DNA from: Silvibacterium sp.
GTDB lineage: Bacteria > Acidobacteriota > Terriglobia > Terriglobales > Acidobacteriaceae
Direction of reading: 5' to 3'
Assembly: GCA_030037215.1 (NCBI GenBank)
Contig: JASHRS010000043.1
Span: 1-39,782, forward strand
Length of the DNA stretch: 39,782 bases
Each line of letters starts with the position of its first letter. Position 1 is the first letter of the stretch. The notes below the pieces were generated by a model that had not been told where the DNA came from, did not search any database, and saw only the letters and a list, made by a program, of their open reading frames with translations. This document shows, piece after piece, positions 529-7,051 of the stretch. The position numbers and the translations under genes were made by a program.

Positions 529-1230
529 TCACGCCTCATCGAGCCCCGATTCAATCGCACGCCGCACAGCTTCCATCAGCTCCTCGCGCGTCGCATAATC
601 CCGTGGCTCAATCGGAGCATGAAAGATCACCCGCACCGTCCCCGGATGCACTTTCAGGCTCCCTTTCGGCATCAGCTTCGCTGTGCCCATAATCGTCACC
701 GGAATCACCGGCGCTCCGCTCTCCATCGCCAGGTAAAACGGCCCCTTTTTGAAGGGAAGCAGTTTTCCATCCGGCGAGCGCGTGCCCTCGACGAACGACG
801 TAACATTCACGCCGCTCGCCAGTACCCTCACCGCCGCTTCCACGCTCTGCTTCGCGCCTTCAACGCTCCCGTCGCGATCAACCGGAATGAACCCCGCCAG
901 CTTCATTCCATAACCCAACACTGGAACCTTCAGCAGCGACCGCTTGATGAACACCGACGTCCGCCTCGGCAGCAGTGGCAACAGCACCTGAGGGTCAAGG
1001 TTCGATACATGATTGGAGAAAAACAGGTAAGTCCGTTTCTCATCGAGTGGCGCGCGCCACTCTGCCTCCACCCGAACCCGCACCACGCGCAGTCCGATCC
1101 GCACAATGCCGAGACTGGCATGGTAGATGAACGATACATTGCCCGAAACAACTGTCCACGGAATCCCCACCAGCGCCACCGGGATCCCGAGCACCATATA
1201 AACAACCAACAGCGTAAGCGCGACGAACAT
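529..1230 (-). CDS. plsC: 1-acyl-sn-glycerol-3-phosphate acyltransferase (PlsC family)
   Basis: Transfers an acyl chain to lysophosphatidic acid to make phosphatidic acid, the second acylation of phospholipid synthesis, at the inner membrane. The 233-aa product has a hydrophobic N-terminus (about residues 1-30), then the HX4D catalytic motif NHVSNLD (His74, Asp79), the acceptor-site motif FVEGTRS (148-152) and the PVIPV segment (174-178), in the order and spacing of the PlsC/LPLAT family. Its ATG directly follows the mpl stop (TGAATG), so it is very probably translationally coupled and is the last gene of the dapF-ldcA-mpl-plsC operon. Substrate specificity cannot be read from the sequence; other lysolipid acyltransferases share these motifs. 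Confidence 0.9.
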   Translation of the reverse strand: MFVALTLLVVYMVLGIPVALVGIPWTVVSGNVSFIYHASLGIVRIGLRVVRVRVEAEWRAPLDEKRTYLFFSNHVSNLDPQVLLPLLPRRTSVFIKRSLLKVPVLGYGMKLAGFIPVDRDGSVEGAKQSVEAAVRVLASGVNVTSFVEGTRSPDGKLLPFKKGPFYLAMESGAPVIPVTIMGTAKLMPKGSLKVHPGTVRVIFHAPIEPRDYATREELMEAVRRAIESGLDEA

Positions 1231-2667
1231 TCAGCCTCGCGCGGCGACGGAAAGCTGCCTCAGACGCTCCGGCAGCTTCTCATAAATTCCATCAAATCCG
1301 CCATTGGACAGAATGGCAACCACATCCCCGGCTCTCAACTCCGGCGCAATGCTCTCGACAATGGCGTCTGCGTCCTTCAACAGAACCGCATCGCGTCCCT
1401 CGCGTCGAAGCGCATCGACCACATGTTCGGGATGCATCCGCTCGTCCACCGGAATGCTCTCCAGCTTGAACACTCCTGCCATCACCACCCGGTCCGCCAG
1501 TGACAGACTCGTAACCAGTTCCTGCTCAAAGACATTCCGCCGGAGTGTGTTCGACCTCGGCTCCAGCACCGCCCACAACCGCCGTCCTGGATACGCCTCG
1601 CGCAGCGCCTTCAGCGTCTCCCGGATCGCCGTCGGATGGTGCGCAAAGTCATCGACGATCGTGATGCTGTCGATCTCCGCCCGCACCTCAAGCCGCCGTT
1701 TCACGCTCTGGAACGTCGCCAGCGCCTCCTTAATCGCACTCAGCGGAACGCCCTGCCCAAACGCCAGAGCAGCAGCAGCAGTCGCATTCAGAGCATTGTG
1801 CGCGCCGGCCATAGGAAGCCTGAATTCAGCCCACGTCTTCCCGTCTCGCCACATGCTCCATCGGCTCTGCGCGCCTTCATGCGTCAGGTCACGCACCTGC
1901 CAGTACGAACCGTCCTTGAACCCATACCGCTCAACCCTGCAGAACGCCTTACTCACGCACTCATCCACATTCGGCGCGCCGTCAAACGCCACTATGCGCC
2001 CGCGCCGCGGAACCAGGTTCACCAGCCGCTTGAACGCCGTCTTTACCGCGTCCAGGTCGCGATAGATATCGGCGTGATCGAACTCCACGTGCGTCAGAAT
2101 CAGCGCATCCGGAAAGTAATGCATGAACTTCGGCCCCTTGTCGAAGAACGCCGTGTCATACTCATCGCCTTCTAGAATCATGGGACGCGTATCCCGCAGC
2201 TGAAAGCTCGTCCCGAAGTTCTCCGCGACCCCGCCAATCAGGAACGACGGCGCCAGCGCCGGATTCCCCCGCGAGGCAACCTCGTAAATCCACGCCAGCA
2301 TGCTCGTCGTCGTCGTCTTGCCGTGCGTGCCCGCCACCACCAGCGACTCGCGCCCCGCCACAAATTCGTCGTGAATTACCTGCGCCAGCGATACGAATGG
2401 AATCTGCTGGTCGAGCACGCACTCCAGCTCCACATTGCCCCGCGAGATTGCGTTGCCCACAATCACCAGATCAGGTCGCGGCGTCAGATTCTTCTCCGCA
2501 AACGGCTCGGCCACCGGAATCTTCAGGCTTCGCAGCAAGTCCGACATTGGCGGATACGCCGCCTGGTCCGATCCCGTAATCCGATGCCCCTTCAACTGCA
2601 ACAGCCCGGCCAGCGACGCCATCGCCGTCCCGCAGATTCCGATCAAATGAATGTGTTTCCCTTCCAT
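1231..2667 (-). CDS. mpl: UDP-N-acetylmuramate:L-Ala-gamma-D-Glu-meso-DAP ligase
   Basis: Murein-recycling ligase that joins recovered tripeptide L-Ala-gamma-D-Glu-meso-DAP to UDP-MurNAc in the cytoplasm, bypassing MurC, MurD and MurE. The 478-aa product is a Mur ligase with the glycine-rich N-terminus HLIGICGTAM (7-16), the ATP P-loop GTHGKTTTT (113-121), a central segment with EGDEYD, and a C-terminal domain with DDFAHHPTAI. The N-terminal GSDQAAYPPMS is characteristic of Mpl rather than MurC. It is preceded six bases earlier by ldcA, whose end carries its AAGGGG ribosome-binding site. Pairing with ldcA, which generates tripeptide, and dapF, which makes meso-DAP, strongly supports a recycling role. 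MurC is the only realistic alternative. Confidence 0.92.
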   Translation of the reverse strand: MEGKHIHLIGICGTAMASLAGLLQLKGHRITGSDQAAYPPMSDLLRSLKIPVAEPFAEKNLTPRPDLVIVGNAISRGNVELECVLDQQIPFVSLAQVIHDEFVAGRESLVVAGTHGKTTTTSMLAWIYEVASRGNPALAPSFLIGGVAENFGTSFQLRDTRPMILEGDEYDTAFFDKGPKFMHYFPDALILTHVEFDHADIYRDLDAVKTAFKRLVNLVPRRGRIVAFDGAPNVDECVSKAFCRVERYGFKDGSYWQVRDLTHEGAQSRWSMWRDGKTWAEFRLPMAGAHNALNATAAAALAFGQGVPLSAIKEALATFQSVKRRLEVRAEIDSITIVDDFAHHPTAIRETLKALREAYPGRRLWAVLEPRSNTLRRNVFEQELVTSLSLADRVVMAGVFKLESIPVDERMHPEHVVDALRREGRDAVLLKDADAIVESIAPELRAGDVVAILSNGGFDGIYEKLPERLRQLSVAARG

Positions 2668-2673
2668 GACCCC

Positions 2674-3597
2674 TTAAACCTGCACCGCCGCTTCCAGGTA
2701 CCTGAGCTTCGGCTCATCTTCGAGCGCCAACTCCGCCCGGATCCCGAACGGCAACGTCACGTTACCATGCGAGACATGCCCCGAGCGCAACCCCATTGCA
2801 ATCGGCCCGTCGAACCAGTCGAGCACGCGCAGAATCACCTGATCAACAAGATCAGGGCTTGTCCCCGGCGACACGCATTCCAGCATCTCGCCAAAAACAA
2901 ACCCCGTCACGCCGTCGAACTTACCCGCCAGCACCATCTGCCGCAGCATCCGGTCGATCTGATACGGCTTCGTGCCCACATCTTCCAGAAACAGCAGCTT
3001 GCCTTCCGTCTGTGGCGCGAATGGCGTGCCCAGCGACGCCGTGAGAATGCTCAAACATCCTCCGTACGCAATGCCTTCCGCCCGTCCCGCCCTTAAAATC
3101 CGCATTCCTTCCGCGGCGCCAACCTCGATAAGCCTTCCATTCAACGCGGCCTTGAAGCTCGCCTCATGCACGCCATTGTCGCGCGAGAAATCCCCTGCCA
3201 CCAGCGGCCCATGAAACGCTATCAATCCGGTCTTATCCAGCATCCACGTCTGCACTGCAGTAAGGTCGCTGTAGGAGAAAAACGGCTTGGGATTGGCGCG
3301 GATCAGGTCTAGATCAAGGTCTTCCAATAAATAATTCGACCCGTAGCCGCCGCGCGTCGTAAAAACTGCCTCCACTTCCGGATCGGCAAACGCTGCGTGC
3401 AGATCGGCCAGCCGTTCTGCCGCTGTCCCTGAAAAATACGGCGGTTCTTTGCCCAGCGCGTGCTTACCTGTCACTACTTCAAAACCGTGCGCGCGCAGCG
3501 CAGCTATTCCCTTCTCAATCAGTTCCGGCTTCGCGCTGCTGGCCGGAGCAATCACCGCTACGCGCGCGCCTTTCGATACGGCTGCGGGTTTCACCAC
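2674..3597 (-). CDS. ldcA: Murein LD-carboxypeptidase (peptidase S66 family)
   Basis: Cytoplasmic L,D-carboxypeptidase that removes the terminal D-Ala from recovered murein tetrapeptides, giving the tripeptide used by Mpl. The 307-aa product has no signal peptide and matches S66 in order: TTRGGYGSNYL (80-90), nucleophile Ser110 in FSYSDLT, Glu205 in FLEDVGTKPYQ, and His274 in SGHVSHGN. The start is GTG at 3597, overlapping the 3' end of dapF by 7 bases (GTGGTGA), so the two are translationally coupled. MccF-type immunity proteins share the fold, but operon position between dapF and mpl favours LdcA. Length is normal for the family. Confidence 0.9.
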   Translation of the reverse strand: MVKPAAVSKGARVAVIAPASSAKPELIEKGIAALRAHGFEVVTGKHALGKEPPYFSGTAAERLADLHAAFADPEVEAVFTTRGGYGSNYLLEDLDLDLIRANPKPFFSYSDLTAVQTWMLDKTGLIAFHGPLVAGDFSRDNGVHEASFKAALNGRLIEVGAAEGMRILRAGRAEGIAYGGCLSILTASLGTPFAPQTEGKLLFLEDVGTKPYQIDRMLRQMVLAGKFDGVTGFVFGEMLECVSPGTSPDLVDQVILRVLDWFDGPIAMGLRSGHVSHGNVTLPFGIRAELALEDEPKLRYLEAAVQV

Positions 3598-4385
3598 GCC
3601 TCTCCACTTGCAATCAGCTCCGCCGGACCGGTCAGCATGATCTCCGTGCCATCTCCGGCCCAGTCCACAATTTGCTCACCGCCCGGCGCGTGCACCTGTA
3701 AAGGAGACTGCAGCCCGCGCAGCGCAATCGAAGCCGTCGCCGTAGCGCACGTCCCCGTGCCCGAAGAGGTCGTCGGCCCCACGCCGCGCTCGAAAATCCG
3801 AATCTCGATCGAATTTGTGTCCGTCACGCGAACAAATTCCACATTGGTCTGCTCCGGAAAATCGGGATGGAAGCAAACCTCCTGCCCCAGTTCCTGCCAT
3901 CCGCGTCCGTGTGCCGCAAACTCCGGCCCATCGACAAAAATTACGAAATGCGGATTCCCCGTTGAAACCGCAACTCCGGATACTTTGGCCCCATCCGCCA
4001 GCATGATCACTTTGTCTGCAATCTCCGGCACGCCCATGCCCTGCGCAAACTCAAAGCGATGTCCCTCAGCCTTCATCACGCGGCATTCGCGCAGTCCGGC
4101 GTCCGTTTCAATCTGCACCGTATCTCCTGCGCTGAGCCTTCTCCGGCATGCCATCCAGGCGGCCACGCATCGCGTTCCGTTGCCGGAGATTTCTGCGACA
4201 GAGCCATCGGCATTGATCAGATGAATCCTGCCCGCGCGTTCGCCTGTCCACTCGAAAAACTCTACGCCGTCAGCTCCGATCCCTGTATTTCGTGCGCATA
4301 GCTTGACCGCCAGCGACGCGTCGGCATTGCCTTCGACAATCAGAAAGTCATTGCCGCAGGCATGCGCCTTGGTAAAACCTGCCAT
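3591..4385 (-). CDS. dapF: Diaminopimelate epimerase, second catalytic Cys position is Ser
   Basis: Interconverts LL- and meso-diaminopimelate for lysine and peptidoglycan synthesis. The 264-aa product has the DapF layout: FTKAHACGNDF (4-14), GADGVEFF (38-45), the first catalytic cysteine Cys73 in GNGTRC, GNPHFVIF (143-150) and the second active-site loop from ERGVG (199-203). In that loop the usual ACGTG reads SSGTG, so Ser208 stands where the second catalytic Cys is expected. A cysteine occurs five residues later (Cys213). Whether this form epimerises normally is unknown. A strong GGAGGATGA ribosome-binding site precedes ATG at 4385. First gene of the operon with ldcA, mpl and plsC. Confidence 0.88.
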   Translation of the reverse strand: MAGFTKAHACGNDFLIVEGNADASLAVKLCARNTGIGADGVEFFEWTGERAGRIHLINADGSVAEISGNGTRCVAAWMACRRRLSAGDTVQIETDAGLRECRVMKAEGHRFEFAQGMGVPEIADKVIMLADGAKVSGVAVSTGNPHFVIFVDGPEFAAHGRGWQELGQEVCFHPDFPEQTNVEFVRVTDTNSIEIRIFERGVGPTTSSGTGTCATATASIALRGLQSPLQVHAPGGEQIVDWAGDGTEIMLTGPAELIASGEAW

Positions 4386-4458: not shown

Positions 4459-6072
4459 TTATCTGGGCCTGATGCTACCACCGGGCTCACGCACGTCAGA
4501 ACGGTAAAAACGCACGCAGGGTTGACCAGTCGAGCACACAATGTTGATCAGCGTCAGCCCTTCTGGATGCGCTGCGACAGCCTTGGCAACCGGATCATTG
4601 TCGGTGGTAATGACATAATTGGCGGACTTGGCTGGGGCATTCAGCGCAGGCTTCCACCTGTAATAGTCGGCTTCATTGATCGTGCGCTTCAGTGCAACGC
4701 CGGCCTGTTGGTATGCCCCGGGATGCTCCGACAAATAAGCCAGGATTGTGCTGTCCGGCGGCAGCGTCTCAAGCCCACGCGCGTACGCTGCCTCAAACGG
4801 AATGCGGGTACGCGAATTCGCGATCATCTCCTGCAAAACAAGTGGAGTCGCGCGCGCCAGCACATAGCTGTTCCCGACAATTAGCAGAGCAATGGCGCCA
4901 ACGACCCACGCCTGTAGTTCCGGCCATCGATTCCCAATCTGCAGCGCAATCCATGCAGCGCAAAAACCCAGTGCGAGCGCAAACACCGGGAGCATCTCCA
5001 TCCCATAGCGCGTGTTGTAAAACGAATGCGGCCACCACGGAGGAATAAAAATCGGAACCGATCCATAAGCCACCGAATACGCATAAAACGGCAGTGGAAC
5101 CCACAATAGCAGCGCAGCCAGAATATGCTGCGACCTGTACCGGATGCCCGCAACAACCGTCCCGGCAAGCGTCAGCCAAAGAAGAATGTTCGCCAGCCGC
5201 GGCCATATCGCTCCCAATTCCGCCGCTTTCAGGAAATATAGCGCAGCCACGCGCATGCTGTGCCATCCCGGATAGTGTGGCGACCCTGGCTTCGTCGTAC
5301 GAATCTCAATCGCCCGCGCTGAATACGGCCCGCGAAGAAAATCCAGAGGATCGCCGAACTGCCGCTGGCAATAGGCCATCCAGATCAGGGGCGCAGCCGC
5401 CAGCATAACTGTAAAGAGCACAAATGCTCCGCCAACTCCGGTCTTCCATAAGTTGCGCTTGCGCAGCAAAGGAGCAATCGCAATGATCCACGTAAAGGTT
5501 GCGAAGATCCATCCGTCATAGCGCGTATACACGGCAGCAACCAGCACCAGTCCACAAAAGATGAGCATCCTGACCGCACGTGCAATCTCCTCATGATCAA
5601 GTGCGCGCAAATACTCAACCAGAAAAATTACTGCCCAGATCATCTCCGCCACACAGAGTGGCTCATTCAGAGCCGTCGTTTGCGCGTAGAGCAATCCTGG
5701 ATTAAGTGCAAAGAACAACAGAGCAATCAGCGATGGCAGCGGCTTCAGCCACACCCGCGCAAGTCGGTAGATCCCAGCCGCGCCAAACACATAGGCGCCA
5801 ATCGAAGGAAAGGCTCCTGCTACCCCCGACTGCCACCACGCCATGCGCCATACAAACGGCACTATCAACAGATGCGGCAACGGAAGCCAAACCGATCCCA
5901 GTTGGCTCAGCCCCGCATTGGTTGAATCGATCAGGCGACGCGCTATGGCCATATGCGCAACCGCATCCCCGCTCAGCAGCAACAGATTATGCGAATAGCA
6001 GAAGGACAGCGCGAAGAGCGAAACCAGCAGCGCGCTCCACGCGACGGCAAAGGTCTCGCCGCGCAGTGCCAT
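4459..6072 (-). CDS. GT-C fold integral membrane glycosyltransferase
   Basis: A multispanning membrane protein (537 aa from this start) with about ten hydrophobic segments. After the first one comes SGDAVAHMAIARRL, an acidic first periplasmic loop as in the PMT/ArnT (GT39/GT83-like) glycosyltransferases that use polyprenyl-phosphate sugars. A soluble C-terminal part (roughly the last 100 residues) carries no motif I recognise. The frame is open back to 6177, but that start would overlap the kinase gene by 62 bases; ATG at 6072, just before LRGETFAVAW, is preferred, though its ribosome-binding site is weak. A TTG at 6123 overlapping the kinase stop is another option. Donor and acceptor are unknown. 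Confidence 0.75.
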   Translation of the reverse strand: MALRGETFAVAWSALLVSLFALSFCYSHNLLLLSGDAVAHMAIARRLIDSTNAGLSQLGSVWLPLPHLLIVPFVWRMAWWQSGVAGAFPSIGAYVFGAAGIYRLARVWLKPLPSLIALLFFALNPGLLYAQTTALNEPLCVAEMIWAVIFLVEYLRALDHEEIARAVRMLIFCGLVLVAAVYTRYDGWIFATFTWIIAIAPLLRKRNLWKTGVGGAFVLFTVMLAAAPLIWMAYCQRQFGDPLDFLRGPYSARAIEIRTTKPGSPHYPGWHSMRVAALYFLKAAELGAIWPRLANILLWLTLAGTVVAGIRYRSQHILAALLLWVPLPFYAYSVAYGSVPIFIPPWWPHSFYNTRYGMEMLPVFALALGFCAAWIALQIGNRWPELQAWVVGAIALLIVGNSYVLARATPLVLQEMIANSRTRIPFEAAYARGLETLPPDSTILAYLSEHPGAYQQAGVALKRTINEADYYRWKPALNAPAKSANYVITTDNDPVAKAVAAHPEGLTLINIVCSTGQPCVRFYRSDVREPGGSIRPR

Positions 6073-6115
6073 CCGCTCGGTATAGGCTGCGGAGGTGCCT
6101 GCCTTGTTTCCGGCT

Positions 6116-7051
6116 TTACTCAAGGTGCGAGAGTTCGCAGAAGAGCGCAAAACGTTCCTCAATTTCCCCAGGATCAAGCTGTTGCAGCCGCTCTATCCCA
6201 AAGCGTTCCACGGCAAACGATCCCATCACGCCTCCGTAGAACATTGCTTTCTTGAAGACCGCCGGGGTCAATTCTTTCTGTGAGGCGATATAGCCGAAGA
6301 AGCCCCCCGCAAACGAGTCGCCGGCTCCTGTCGGATCGACCACTTCTGCAAGCGGCAGCGCCGGAGCGCGGAACATACGAATCGCCCTGCCATGGTTGCC
6401 GGGGAAAGACCTCTCGCTGAAGAATGCCGACGCGCCGTACTCGCCGTGCTTCACCACAAGGCTCTTCGGCCCCATCGCAAGAATTTTCTCCGCGGCAAGA
6501 ACCATGTTCCCTTCATGTGCGAGCAGCTTCGCCTCCGTGTCGTTGATCAGCAGACCATCCAGCCCCTTGAGCATACGCGCCAGGTTCTCCGCATGATCAT
6601 TAATCCAGTAATTCATCGTGTCGCCGCACACCAGTTTCACGCGCGGCATCTTTGCGCGCACATCCGCCTGCAAAACCGGATCGATGTTTGCCAGGAAAAG
6701 ATATTCCGAGTCTTCGTACTCCGCCGGAATCTTCGGTGAAAAACTCTGAAAAACATTCAGTTCGGTATTCAGGGTCTGCGCTTCATTTAGATTTTTGAGG
6801 TACGATCCGCTCCAGAAAAAACTCTTGCCCTTTGTGTGCTCAATGCCGCGCGTGTCAATGCCGCGCCTCGTCAGAACCGCCTCATGCTCCGCAGTAAAAT
6901 CTTCGCCGACCACGGCGATCACGCGCACATCAGTGAAGTAGCTCGCGGCCAGCGCAAAATGCGTTGCTGCACCGCCTACGCAGCGCTCCGCCTTGCCTGA
7001 CGGTGTCTCAATTGTGTCAAATGCAACACTGCCTACTACCAGAATCGACAT
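6116..7051 (-). CDS. PfkB/ribokinase-family sugar or nucleoside kinase
   Basis: ATP-dependent kinase of the ribokinase superfamily, 311 aa. It shows the N-terminal GSVAFDTIETPSG and CVGGAATHFALAA segments (substrate lid and glycine motif) and the C-terminal signature DPTGAGDSFAGGF (239-251) with catalytic base Asp245. Its start lies three bases after the stop of mtnP, so the two are co-transcribed. The neighbour suggests a role in methylthioadenosine or nucleoside salvage, for instance adenosine or a ribose derivative, but PfkB sequences are poor guides to substrate. The short, divergent N-terminal lid is more like the adenosine-kinase/ribokinase side than phosphofructokinase; that is an impression only. 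Confidence 0.85.
   Translation of the reverse strand: MSILVVGSVAFDTIETPSGKAERCVGGAATHFALAASYFTDVRVIAVVGEDFTAEHEAVLTRRGIDTRGIEHTKGKSFFWSGSYLKNLNEAQTLNTELNVFQSFSPKIPAEYEDSEYLFLANIDPVLQADVRAKMPRVKLVCGDTMNYWINDHAENLARMLKGLDGLLINDTEAKLLAHEGNMVLAAEKILAMGPKSLVVKHGEYGASAFFSERSFPGNHGRAIRMFRAPALPLAEVVDPTGAGDSFAGGFFGYIASQKELTPAVFKKAMFYGGVMGSFAVERFGIERLQQLDPGEIEERFALFCELSHLE

Follow-up and report, generated by a model that had tools for sequence, protein, structure and literature searches.

A putative DapF epimerase of Acidobacteriota with serines aligned to both catalytic cysteine positions

We analysed a 39,782-nucleotide stretch of DNA from Silvibacterium sp. (the window), which encodes a homologue of DapF that, judged by alignment with solved structures, lacks both catalytic cysteines and has Ser67 and Ser208 in their places. 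Catalysis by canonical DapF relies on a thiolate and a thiol, and a serine hydroxyl is much less acidic than a thiol, which counts against catalysis by serine. We nonetheless consider that the gene probably codes for a functional LL-DAP/meso-DAP epimerase, with the two serines replacing the cysteines. This reading of activity and mechanism draws on homology, fold, invariance of the serines, retained DAP contacts, the single copy of the gene, and its pathway and gene neighbours. We file the protein as a Ser/Ser variant (residues at the first and second site) within the DapF family, apart from canonical DapF. Among the titles and abstracts of one open-access library, no description of a natural Ser/Ser DapF was found.

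The gene and its neighbours are listed in Table 1. The first-pass annotation had called the open reading frame a DapF homologue, in agreement with the family profiles, and its coordinates stand; the strand has been corrected to minus, as the plus strand has stops in that frame. The start of the ldcA-like gene and the end of dapF share 7 bases, and the genes dapF, ldcA-like, mpl and plsC-like appear to form an operon with plsC-like last; the operon with ldcA and mpl had been proposed before, and gene calls and profile matches bear it out. The neighbours of dapF in the window's own clade belong to peptidoglycan recycling (mpl, ldcA) and membrane lipid (plsC), and relatives of mpl also lie near dapF in two other genomes (G025, G056). 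Upstream of dapF, a 572-residue open reading frame (window 4459-6177, minus strand) has no Pfam match at 1e-8; relatives of it occur near dapF in L246 and L247.

Table 1. The dapF gene, its neighbours and residues discussed in the text, in window coordinates.
Feature	Position	Strand	Evidence
dapF homologue, Ser/Ser type, 264 aa	3591..4385	minus	TIGR00652 195.1 bits (cut-off 114.65); PF01678
LD-carboxypeptidase, Peptidase_S66, ldcA-like	2674..3597	minus	PF02016, PF17676; NF008424 below cut-off
mpl, UDP-MurNAc:tripeptide (meso-DAP) ligase	1231..2667	minus	TIGR01081 417.1 bits, cut-off 388.7
Acyltransferase, 1-acylglycerol-3-phosphate type, plsC-like	529..1230	minus	PF01553 93.4 bits; TIGR00530 below cut-off
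Ser67, codon TCC, aligned with first catalytic Cys position	4185..4187	minus	sequence and PDB alignments
Ser208, codon TCG, aligned with second catalytic Cys position	3762..3764	minus	sequence and PDB alignments
Cys73, codon TGC, non-catalytic second Cys of CGNGxRC	4167..4169	minus	sequence and PDB alignments
Cys213, codon TGC, helix Cys shared with canonical DapF	3747..3749	minus	sequence and protein alignment

In all five PDB alignments printed, the CGNG of the PDB chains falls on SGNG of the window protein and their ACGTG (SCGTG in one chain) falls on SSGTG, with no gaps at either motif. The two cysteines that mark DapF at CGNGxR and ACGTG are here Ser67, in SGNGTR, and Ser208, in SSGTG. 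In H. influenzae numbering we take these positions to be Cys73 and Cys217, with numbering and motif labels matched to the PDB alignments. The first-pass annotation had placed Ser208 correctly at the second catalytic position. Its catalytic Cys73, in GNGTRC, aligns instead with the second cysteine of CGNGxRC (Cys in four of the five chains, Leu in the fifth), and the catalytic position is that of Ser67; because this non-catalytic cysteine was taken as catalytic, only half of the change was noticed. A misaligned loop that puts Cys213 in the normal position is contradicted by the same gap-free alignments.

An AlphaFold model of the window protein, built from a 26-row alignment (pLDDT 96.5, pTM 0.92), has the two-domain DapF fold with the residues at the catalytic positions at helix N-termini. 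The two central helices of the model span residues 68-81 and 209-223, so that Ser67 and Ser208 each directly precede a helix, as the catalytic cysteines of known DapF do (excerpt of PMC12039745). The closest structures are 9mro (Z 34.2, rmsd 2.2 over 254 residues), 7vdy (33.9) and 3ejx (33.8), followed by 5m47 (31.6), and 9mro, 3ejx and 5m47 are ligand-bound DapF chains. The fold by itself says nothing on function.

The Ser/Ser form is clade-wide. Among the window's own genome and its nearest relatives (61 searched), 56 have a DapF match, one each by TIGR00652, and all 56 are Ser/Ser. The same serines occur in named isolates and in a complete chromosome, and both are invariant in the window's class. 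A phylum-spread search of Acidobacteriota gave a match in 193 of 198 genomes. We read 128 of the 192 genomes G061-G252 and found 80 Ser/Ser, 45 Cys/Cys and 3 Cys/Ser; this is not a random sample, as it comprises the 30 best-scoring genomes, then mostly at least one per family, then members of the window's family. By family, 45 of the 73 read have Ser/Ser only, 24 Cys/Cys only and 3 Cys/Ser only, and one (f31) has both Ser/Ser and Cys/Cys. The 223 distinct proteins aligned comprise 115 Ser/Ser, 98 Cys/Cys, 7 Cys/Ser, 1 Ala/Cys and 2 fragments. The Ser/Cys form was found neither among these 223 nor in later sets of 59 and 40.

Two genomes of the window's class (G052 and G055, 100% and 98% complete) have no DapF match at E 0.001, though their relatives match, and are candidates for carrying another DAP epimerase. 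In family f29, five Ser/Ser loci (L078, L082, L096, L108, L376) carry a cysteine three residues past Ser208 (SSGTC or ASGTC), which L066 and L095 of the same family lack. Four f31 genomes (G118, G248, G128, G153; L091-L094) have three DapF matches, one of them a divergent Ser/Ser gene; in sister genomes the extra matches are pieces of one Cys/Cys gene. Second DapF-like matches in G676, G720, G759 and G760 lie within very long open frames (1314-1350 aa) that may represent fusions, and a DapF-like match in an 864-residue frame of a Clostridia MAG (L059) has Ala at the first site and Cys at the second.

Outside Acidobacteriota we inspected mainly the best matches to the Ser/Ser profile, with the phylum of each group as in the starting records. 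In Pseudomonadota 377 of 398 genomes match, and the 50 read (30 best and 20 spread along the matches listed) are 46 Cys/Cys, 3 Cys/Ser and 1 Ser/Ser. The best 30 from Bacillota (96 of 119 genomes matching) are all Cys/Cys, and 29 new loci from Bacteroidota (118 of 118) are 28 Cys/Cys and 1 Ser/Ser. Scanning IMG/VR with the Ser/Ser alignment yielded two confirmed contigs, both Cys/Ser. The DapF of these contigs (L190, L191) and of L235, L239 and L245, all Cys/Ser, has ASGSCSCA or ASGSSSCA at the second site and is related to a Paracoccaceae Cys/Cys protein.

Among the 115 Ser/Ser proteins the first serine is encoded by TCN in 94 and AGY in 21, and the second by TCN in 113 and AGY in 2; serine is thus retained across both codon families at both sites. 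In 107 Ser/Ser proteins, the residues that align with DAP contacts from the literature, namely Asn12, Asn58, Gly68, Asn69, Asn144, Asn181, Glu199, Arg200, Gly209 and Thr/Ser210, are conserved at 98-100%. The DAP-contact residues were mapped by alignment from an excerpt of PMC12039745, and Asn12 from one of PMC5296763; Asn12, Asn58, Asn69, Asn144, Asn181, Glu199 and Arg200 are all present in the window protein and reach 99-100% in the 107. Asn144 is found in 100% of these proteins, but 31 of the 45 Cys/Cys proteins of Acidobacteriota have Val there (f37, f14 and f39 are among the families concerned), which makes the Ser/Ser proteins the more DAP-like at that site. These Cys/Cys proteins, among L061-L189, may prefer another substrate; on TIGR00652 they score anywhere from high (f37) to close to or under the cut-off. 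Position 146 is less uniform: of the 107 proteins, 76 have His, 25 have Gln, and Asn and Val occur in 3 each, which counts against an epimerase.

No new conserved acid or base near the serines and specific to the Ser/Ser proteins was recognised in the alignment columns, which counts against catalysis by serine. Conserved Ser/Ser columns that differ from Cys/Cys proteins of the Pseudomonadota type are 30, 38, 40, 64, 76, 183, 202 and 240. Most Acidobacteriota Cys/Cys proteins have the same residue in columns 30, 38, 40, 202 and 240, and 58% have it in column 64. Columns 76 and 183 differ from both Cys/Cys sets, are not shared by the two other Ser/Ser groups, and lie outside the DAP contacts in the published excerpts.

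The pathway setting suggests that an epimerase is needed. We searched 58 genomes for Ddh (meso-DAP dehydrogenase); 43 of them are Ser/Ser, the state of all 43 having been read. None of the 43 has Ddh over the cut-off, the two positives being Cys/Cys genomes, and LysA is over the cut-off in 36 of the 43. MurE carries the DNPR motif, which we take to go with meso-DAP, in all four genomes read for it (G000, G002, G025 and G593). LysA needs meso-DAP, and without Ddh the known routes yield LL-DAP and require an epimerase. Taken together, the lack of Ddh over the cut-off, LysA and the MurE motif imply that meso-DAP must be made. Two findings count against the epimerase reading: weak Ddh matches below the cut-off occur in 17 genomes, the window's own included, and LysA is not over the cut-off in G057, G065, G102, G105, G116, G118 and G248. 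The window's own genome (89% complete, in 314 contigs) has one PF01678 gene, Ddh below the cut-off only, and LysA; no second, canonical DapF was found in this assembly. As proof of an LL-DAP route in that genome, the DapL profile TIGR03540 was rejected, its matches being below the cut-off.

Ser/Ser dapF lies next to DAP genes in other genomes. In a 1.3 Mb genome from the Pseudomonadota search (G593, L263), six such genes stand in a row, with lysA and aspartokinase on one strand, and dapB, dapA, Ser/Ser dapF and an aminotransferase, DapL/DapC-like but below cut-offs, on the other. In a genome from the Bacteroidota search (G849, L331), the gene after Ser/Ser dapF encodes an LL-DAP aminotransferase, with 671.1 bits on NF004937 against a cut-off of 585. 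Each of these two genomes has one DapF match. In G118 of f31 (L262), the gene after Ser/Ser dapF resembles ArgE/DapE deacylases but scores below their cut-offs. The DapF proteins of G593 and G118 fall in one divergent Ser/Ser group, to which the G849 protein (L302) was assigned by motifs only. The strong operon evidence therefore comes from this divergent group (L243, L302) and not from the window's clade, which counts against the epimerase reading. At ten other Acidobacteriota Ser/Ser loci (L247, L250, L252-L259) the annotated adjacent genes are not DAP genes, which we regard as neutral.

The Ser/Ser protein might bind a DAP-like substrate and carry out another reaction (dehydration, elimination or isomerisation), or act on another amino acid, with meso-DAP supplied by another enzyme. 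We consider this unlikely, although it has precedents: in the proline racemase superfamily, a 3-hydroxyproline dehydratase has lost the cysteine pair and has Ser90/Thr256 (excerpt of PMC4113996), and HisR is a predicted DapF with a different substrate (excerpt of PMC11602996). In the fold comparison, moreover, O-ureidoserine racemase (7vdy) ties with DapF. The retained DAP-contact residues, the need for meso-DAP deduced from Ddh, LysA and MurE, and the proximity of Ser/Ser dapF, in two genomes of other phyla, to dapA/dapB/lysA and DapL-type genes all argue against it, and weaken the suggestion of the first-pass annotation that the enzyme acts on another substrate.

It is very unlikely that catalysis has been lost and that the protein survives as a regulator, in the manner of E. 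coli DapF, which stimulates RppH independently of its epimerase activity; with both cysteines changed to Ala, that protein still binds and stimulates RppH (excerpt of PMC4227774). A regulator would not need the substrate contacts, which are kept. Within the window's class, moreover, both sites carry serine only, and the protein is the sole DapF match in genomes that need meso-DAP.

That another cysteine (Cys213, Cys73 or Cys30) does the chemistry is hardly credible. By alignment these are frequent in the 115 Ser/Ser proteins (Cys30 in 113, Cys73 in 101, Cys213 in 73), but none of them is universal. Of the three, seven proteins keep Cys30 alone; Cys30 itself is missing from two, and the chain of L168 as trimmed contains a single cysteine in total. 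By alignment no cysteine is universal in the Ser/Ser set. Cys213, the helix cysteine of ACGTGAC, accompanies the catalytic cysteine in 98% of 53 Cys/Cys proteins, nearly all from Pseudomonadota, and the Acidobacteriota Cys/Cys proteins have Cys73 in 36 of 45 and Cys213 in 0 of 45. The five gap-free PDB alignments also fix the catalytic positions. As substitute bases Cys213 and Cys73 were rejected, being absent from 42 and 14 of the 115, respectively, and the earlier proposal that Cys213 has taken over is contradicted. Of the three options then put forward, use of serine is the best supported, but for two positions and not one. Error in sequencing or alignment, for which the incomplete, 314-contig assembly might speak, is refuted by the clade survey: the genomes of 55 further relatives carry the same serines, as do named isolates and a complete chromosome.

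The history of the substitution was explored with three trees. In a 125-row tree that includes the catalytic columns, 99 Acidobacteriota rows, all Ser/Ser, form one branch (support 97/91). From a careful 72-row tree and a quick 139-row tree the two catalytic columns were removed, and groups were named after the trees had been seen. The 139-row tree omits 84 of the 223 proteins: fragments, most close relatives of the window, near-copies and most Pseudomonadota Cys/Cys proteins. The 72-row tree omits 67 more (47 Ser/Ser, 19 Cys/Cys, 1 Ala/Cys), among them all four members of the divergent Ser/Ser group and long-branch Cys/Cys proteins. In the 72-row tree the main Ser/Ser group (22 rows, 99/96) neighbours Cys/Cys and Cys/Ser DapF from other phyla, a Ser/Ser pair from family f12 lies inside a group of Cys/Cys and Cys/Ser proteins (100/100), and the two are joined in 0 of 200 bootstrap trees. 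A single origin of the Ser/Ser form is rejected in this tree (p-AU 0.0044) and not rejected in the 139-row tree (p-AU 0.407); we therefore grade a repeated origin as likely, not proven. The Cys/Ser form arose more than once, a single origin being rejected in the 72-row tree with p-AU 1e-8. Because Cys/Ser occurs but Ser/Cys was never encountered, change probably began at the second site.

If the window protein is an epimerase, one serine of the Ser67/Ser208 pair would take the alpha proton from bound DAP and the other would donate a proton at the opposite face, so that the two-base, cofactor-free scheme of DapF would be retained with oxygen replacing sulphur. The helix N-termini and protonation of the substrate amine may help to make the serine basic enough. 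Serine does occur naturally as a catalytic residue in this fold, in a 4-hydroxyproline epimerase with Ser93 and Cys (excerpt of PMC4113996), which speaks for the serine reading. Engineered cysteine losses count against it: C. glutamicum DapF loses nearly all activity as C83A or C221A (excerpt of PMC5296763), and turnover of HisR is greatly lowered by the single changes C67S and C209S (excerpt of PMC11602996). A plausible, putative gain would be escape from oxidative inactivation, which in Cys/Cys DapF comes about through a disulfide; in C. glutamicum such a bond between the two cysteines switches the enzyme off (excerpt of PMC5296763). With moderate confidence we favour the joint picture of a thiol-free, oxygen-based two-base deprotonation of the alpha carbon, which would have originated at least twice from Cys/Cys through Cys/Ser, second site first, would serve most Acidobacteriota families as their usual DAP epimerase, and would be insensitive to oxidation and to cysteine-alkylating inhibitors.

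The accepted account of DapF, a model cofactor-independent racemase, rests on the thiol/thiolate pair; if a clade does the same job with two serines, sulphur is not required. The clade would then supply natural enzymes for measuring how a hydroxyl abstracts a proton that is only very weakly acidic, and antibacterial leads that attach covalently to the cysteines would have a narrower reach. The Cys/Ser forms of other lineages offer intermediates for testing how the pair changes. The case also warns that, when proteins are annotated by family score, the absence of both catalytic residues goes unnoticed.

Comparison with known systems places the protein nearest to DapF. PhzF isomerases share the fold (5iwe, Z 26.2) at about 12% identity, and their chemistry is other than that of DapF. 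O-ureidoserine racemase (7vdy, Z 33.9) is as close in fold as DapF, with 32% identity, but differs in substrate according to the PDB title. In the proline racemase superfamily, 4-hydroxyproline 2-epimerase B9JQV3 has a related fold and a natural serine as one catalytic residue, in a Ser93 and Cys pair; unlike the window protein it has one serine only (Ser/Cys), acts on another substrate, and has its serine held by an Asn three residues on, whereas Ser67 precedes Gly68-Asn69-Gly70 (excerpt of PMC4113996). The window protein lacks such an Asn-held serine and by sequence falls outside that superfamily, Pfam giving PF01678 alone at E 0.001. The trans-3-hydroxyproline dehydratase B9K4G4 (Ser90/Thr256) likewise lacks both catalytic cysteines, but is not an epimerase, and its Thr256 is described as having a non-catalytic orientation (excerpt of PMC4113996). 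With DapF itself (TIGR00652, PF01678; H. influenzae 1gqz, C. glutamicum 5m47, Anabaena 9mro) the protein shares family, fold, DAP contacts and pathway setting, and differs in having two serines for the two catalytic cysteines. The H. influenzae variants C73S (2q9h) and C217S (2q9j) have folds similar to that of the model (Z 30.2 and 29.7); these are single laboratory mutants, whereas in the window's clade both changes are natural, occur together and are clade-wide.
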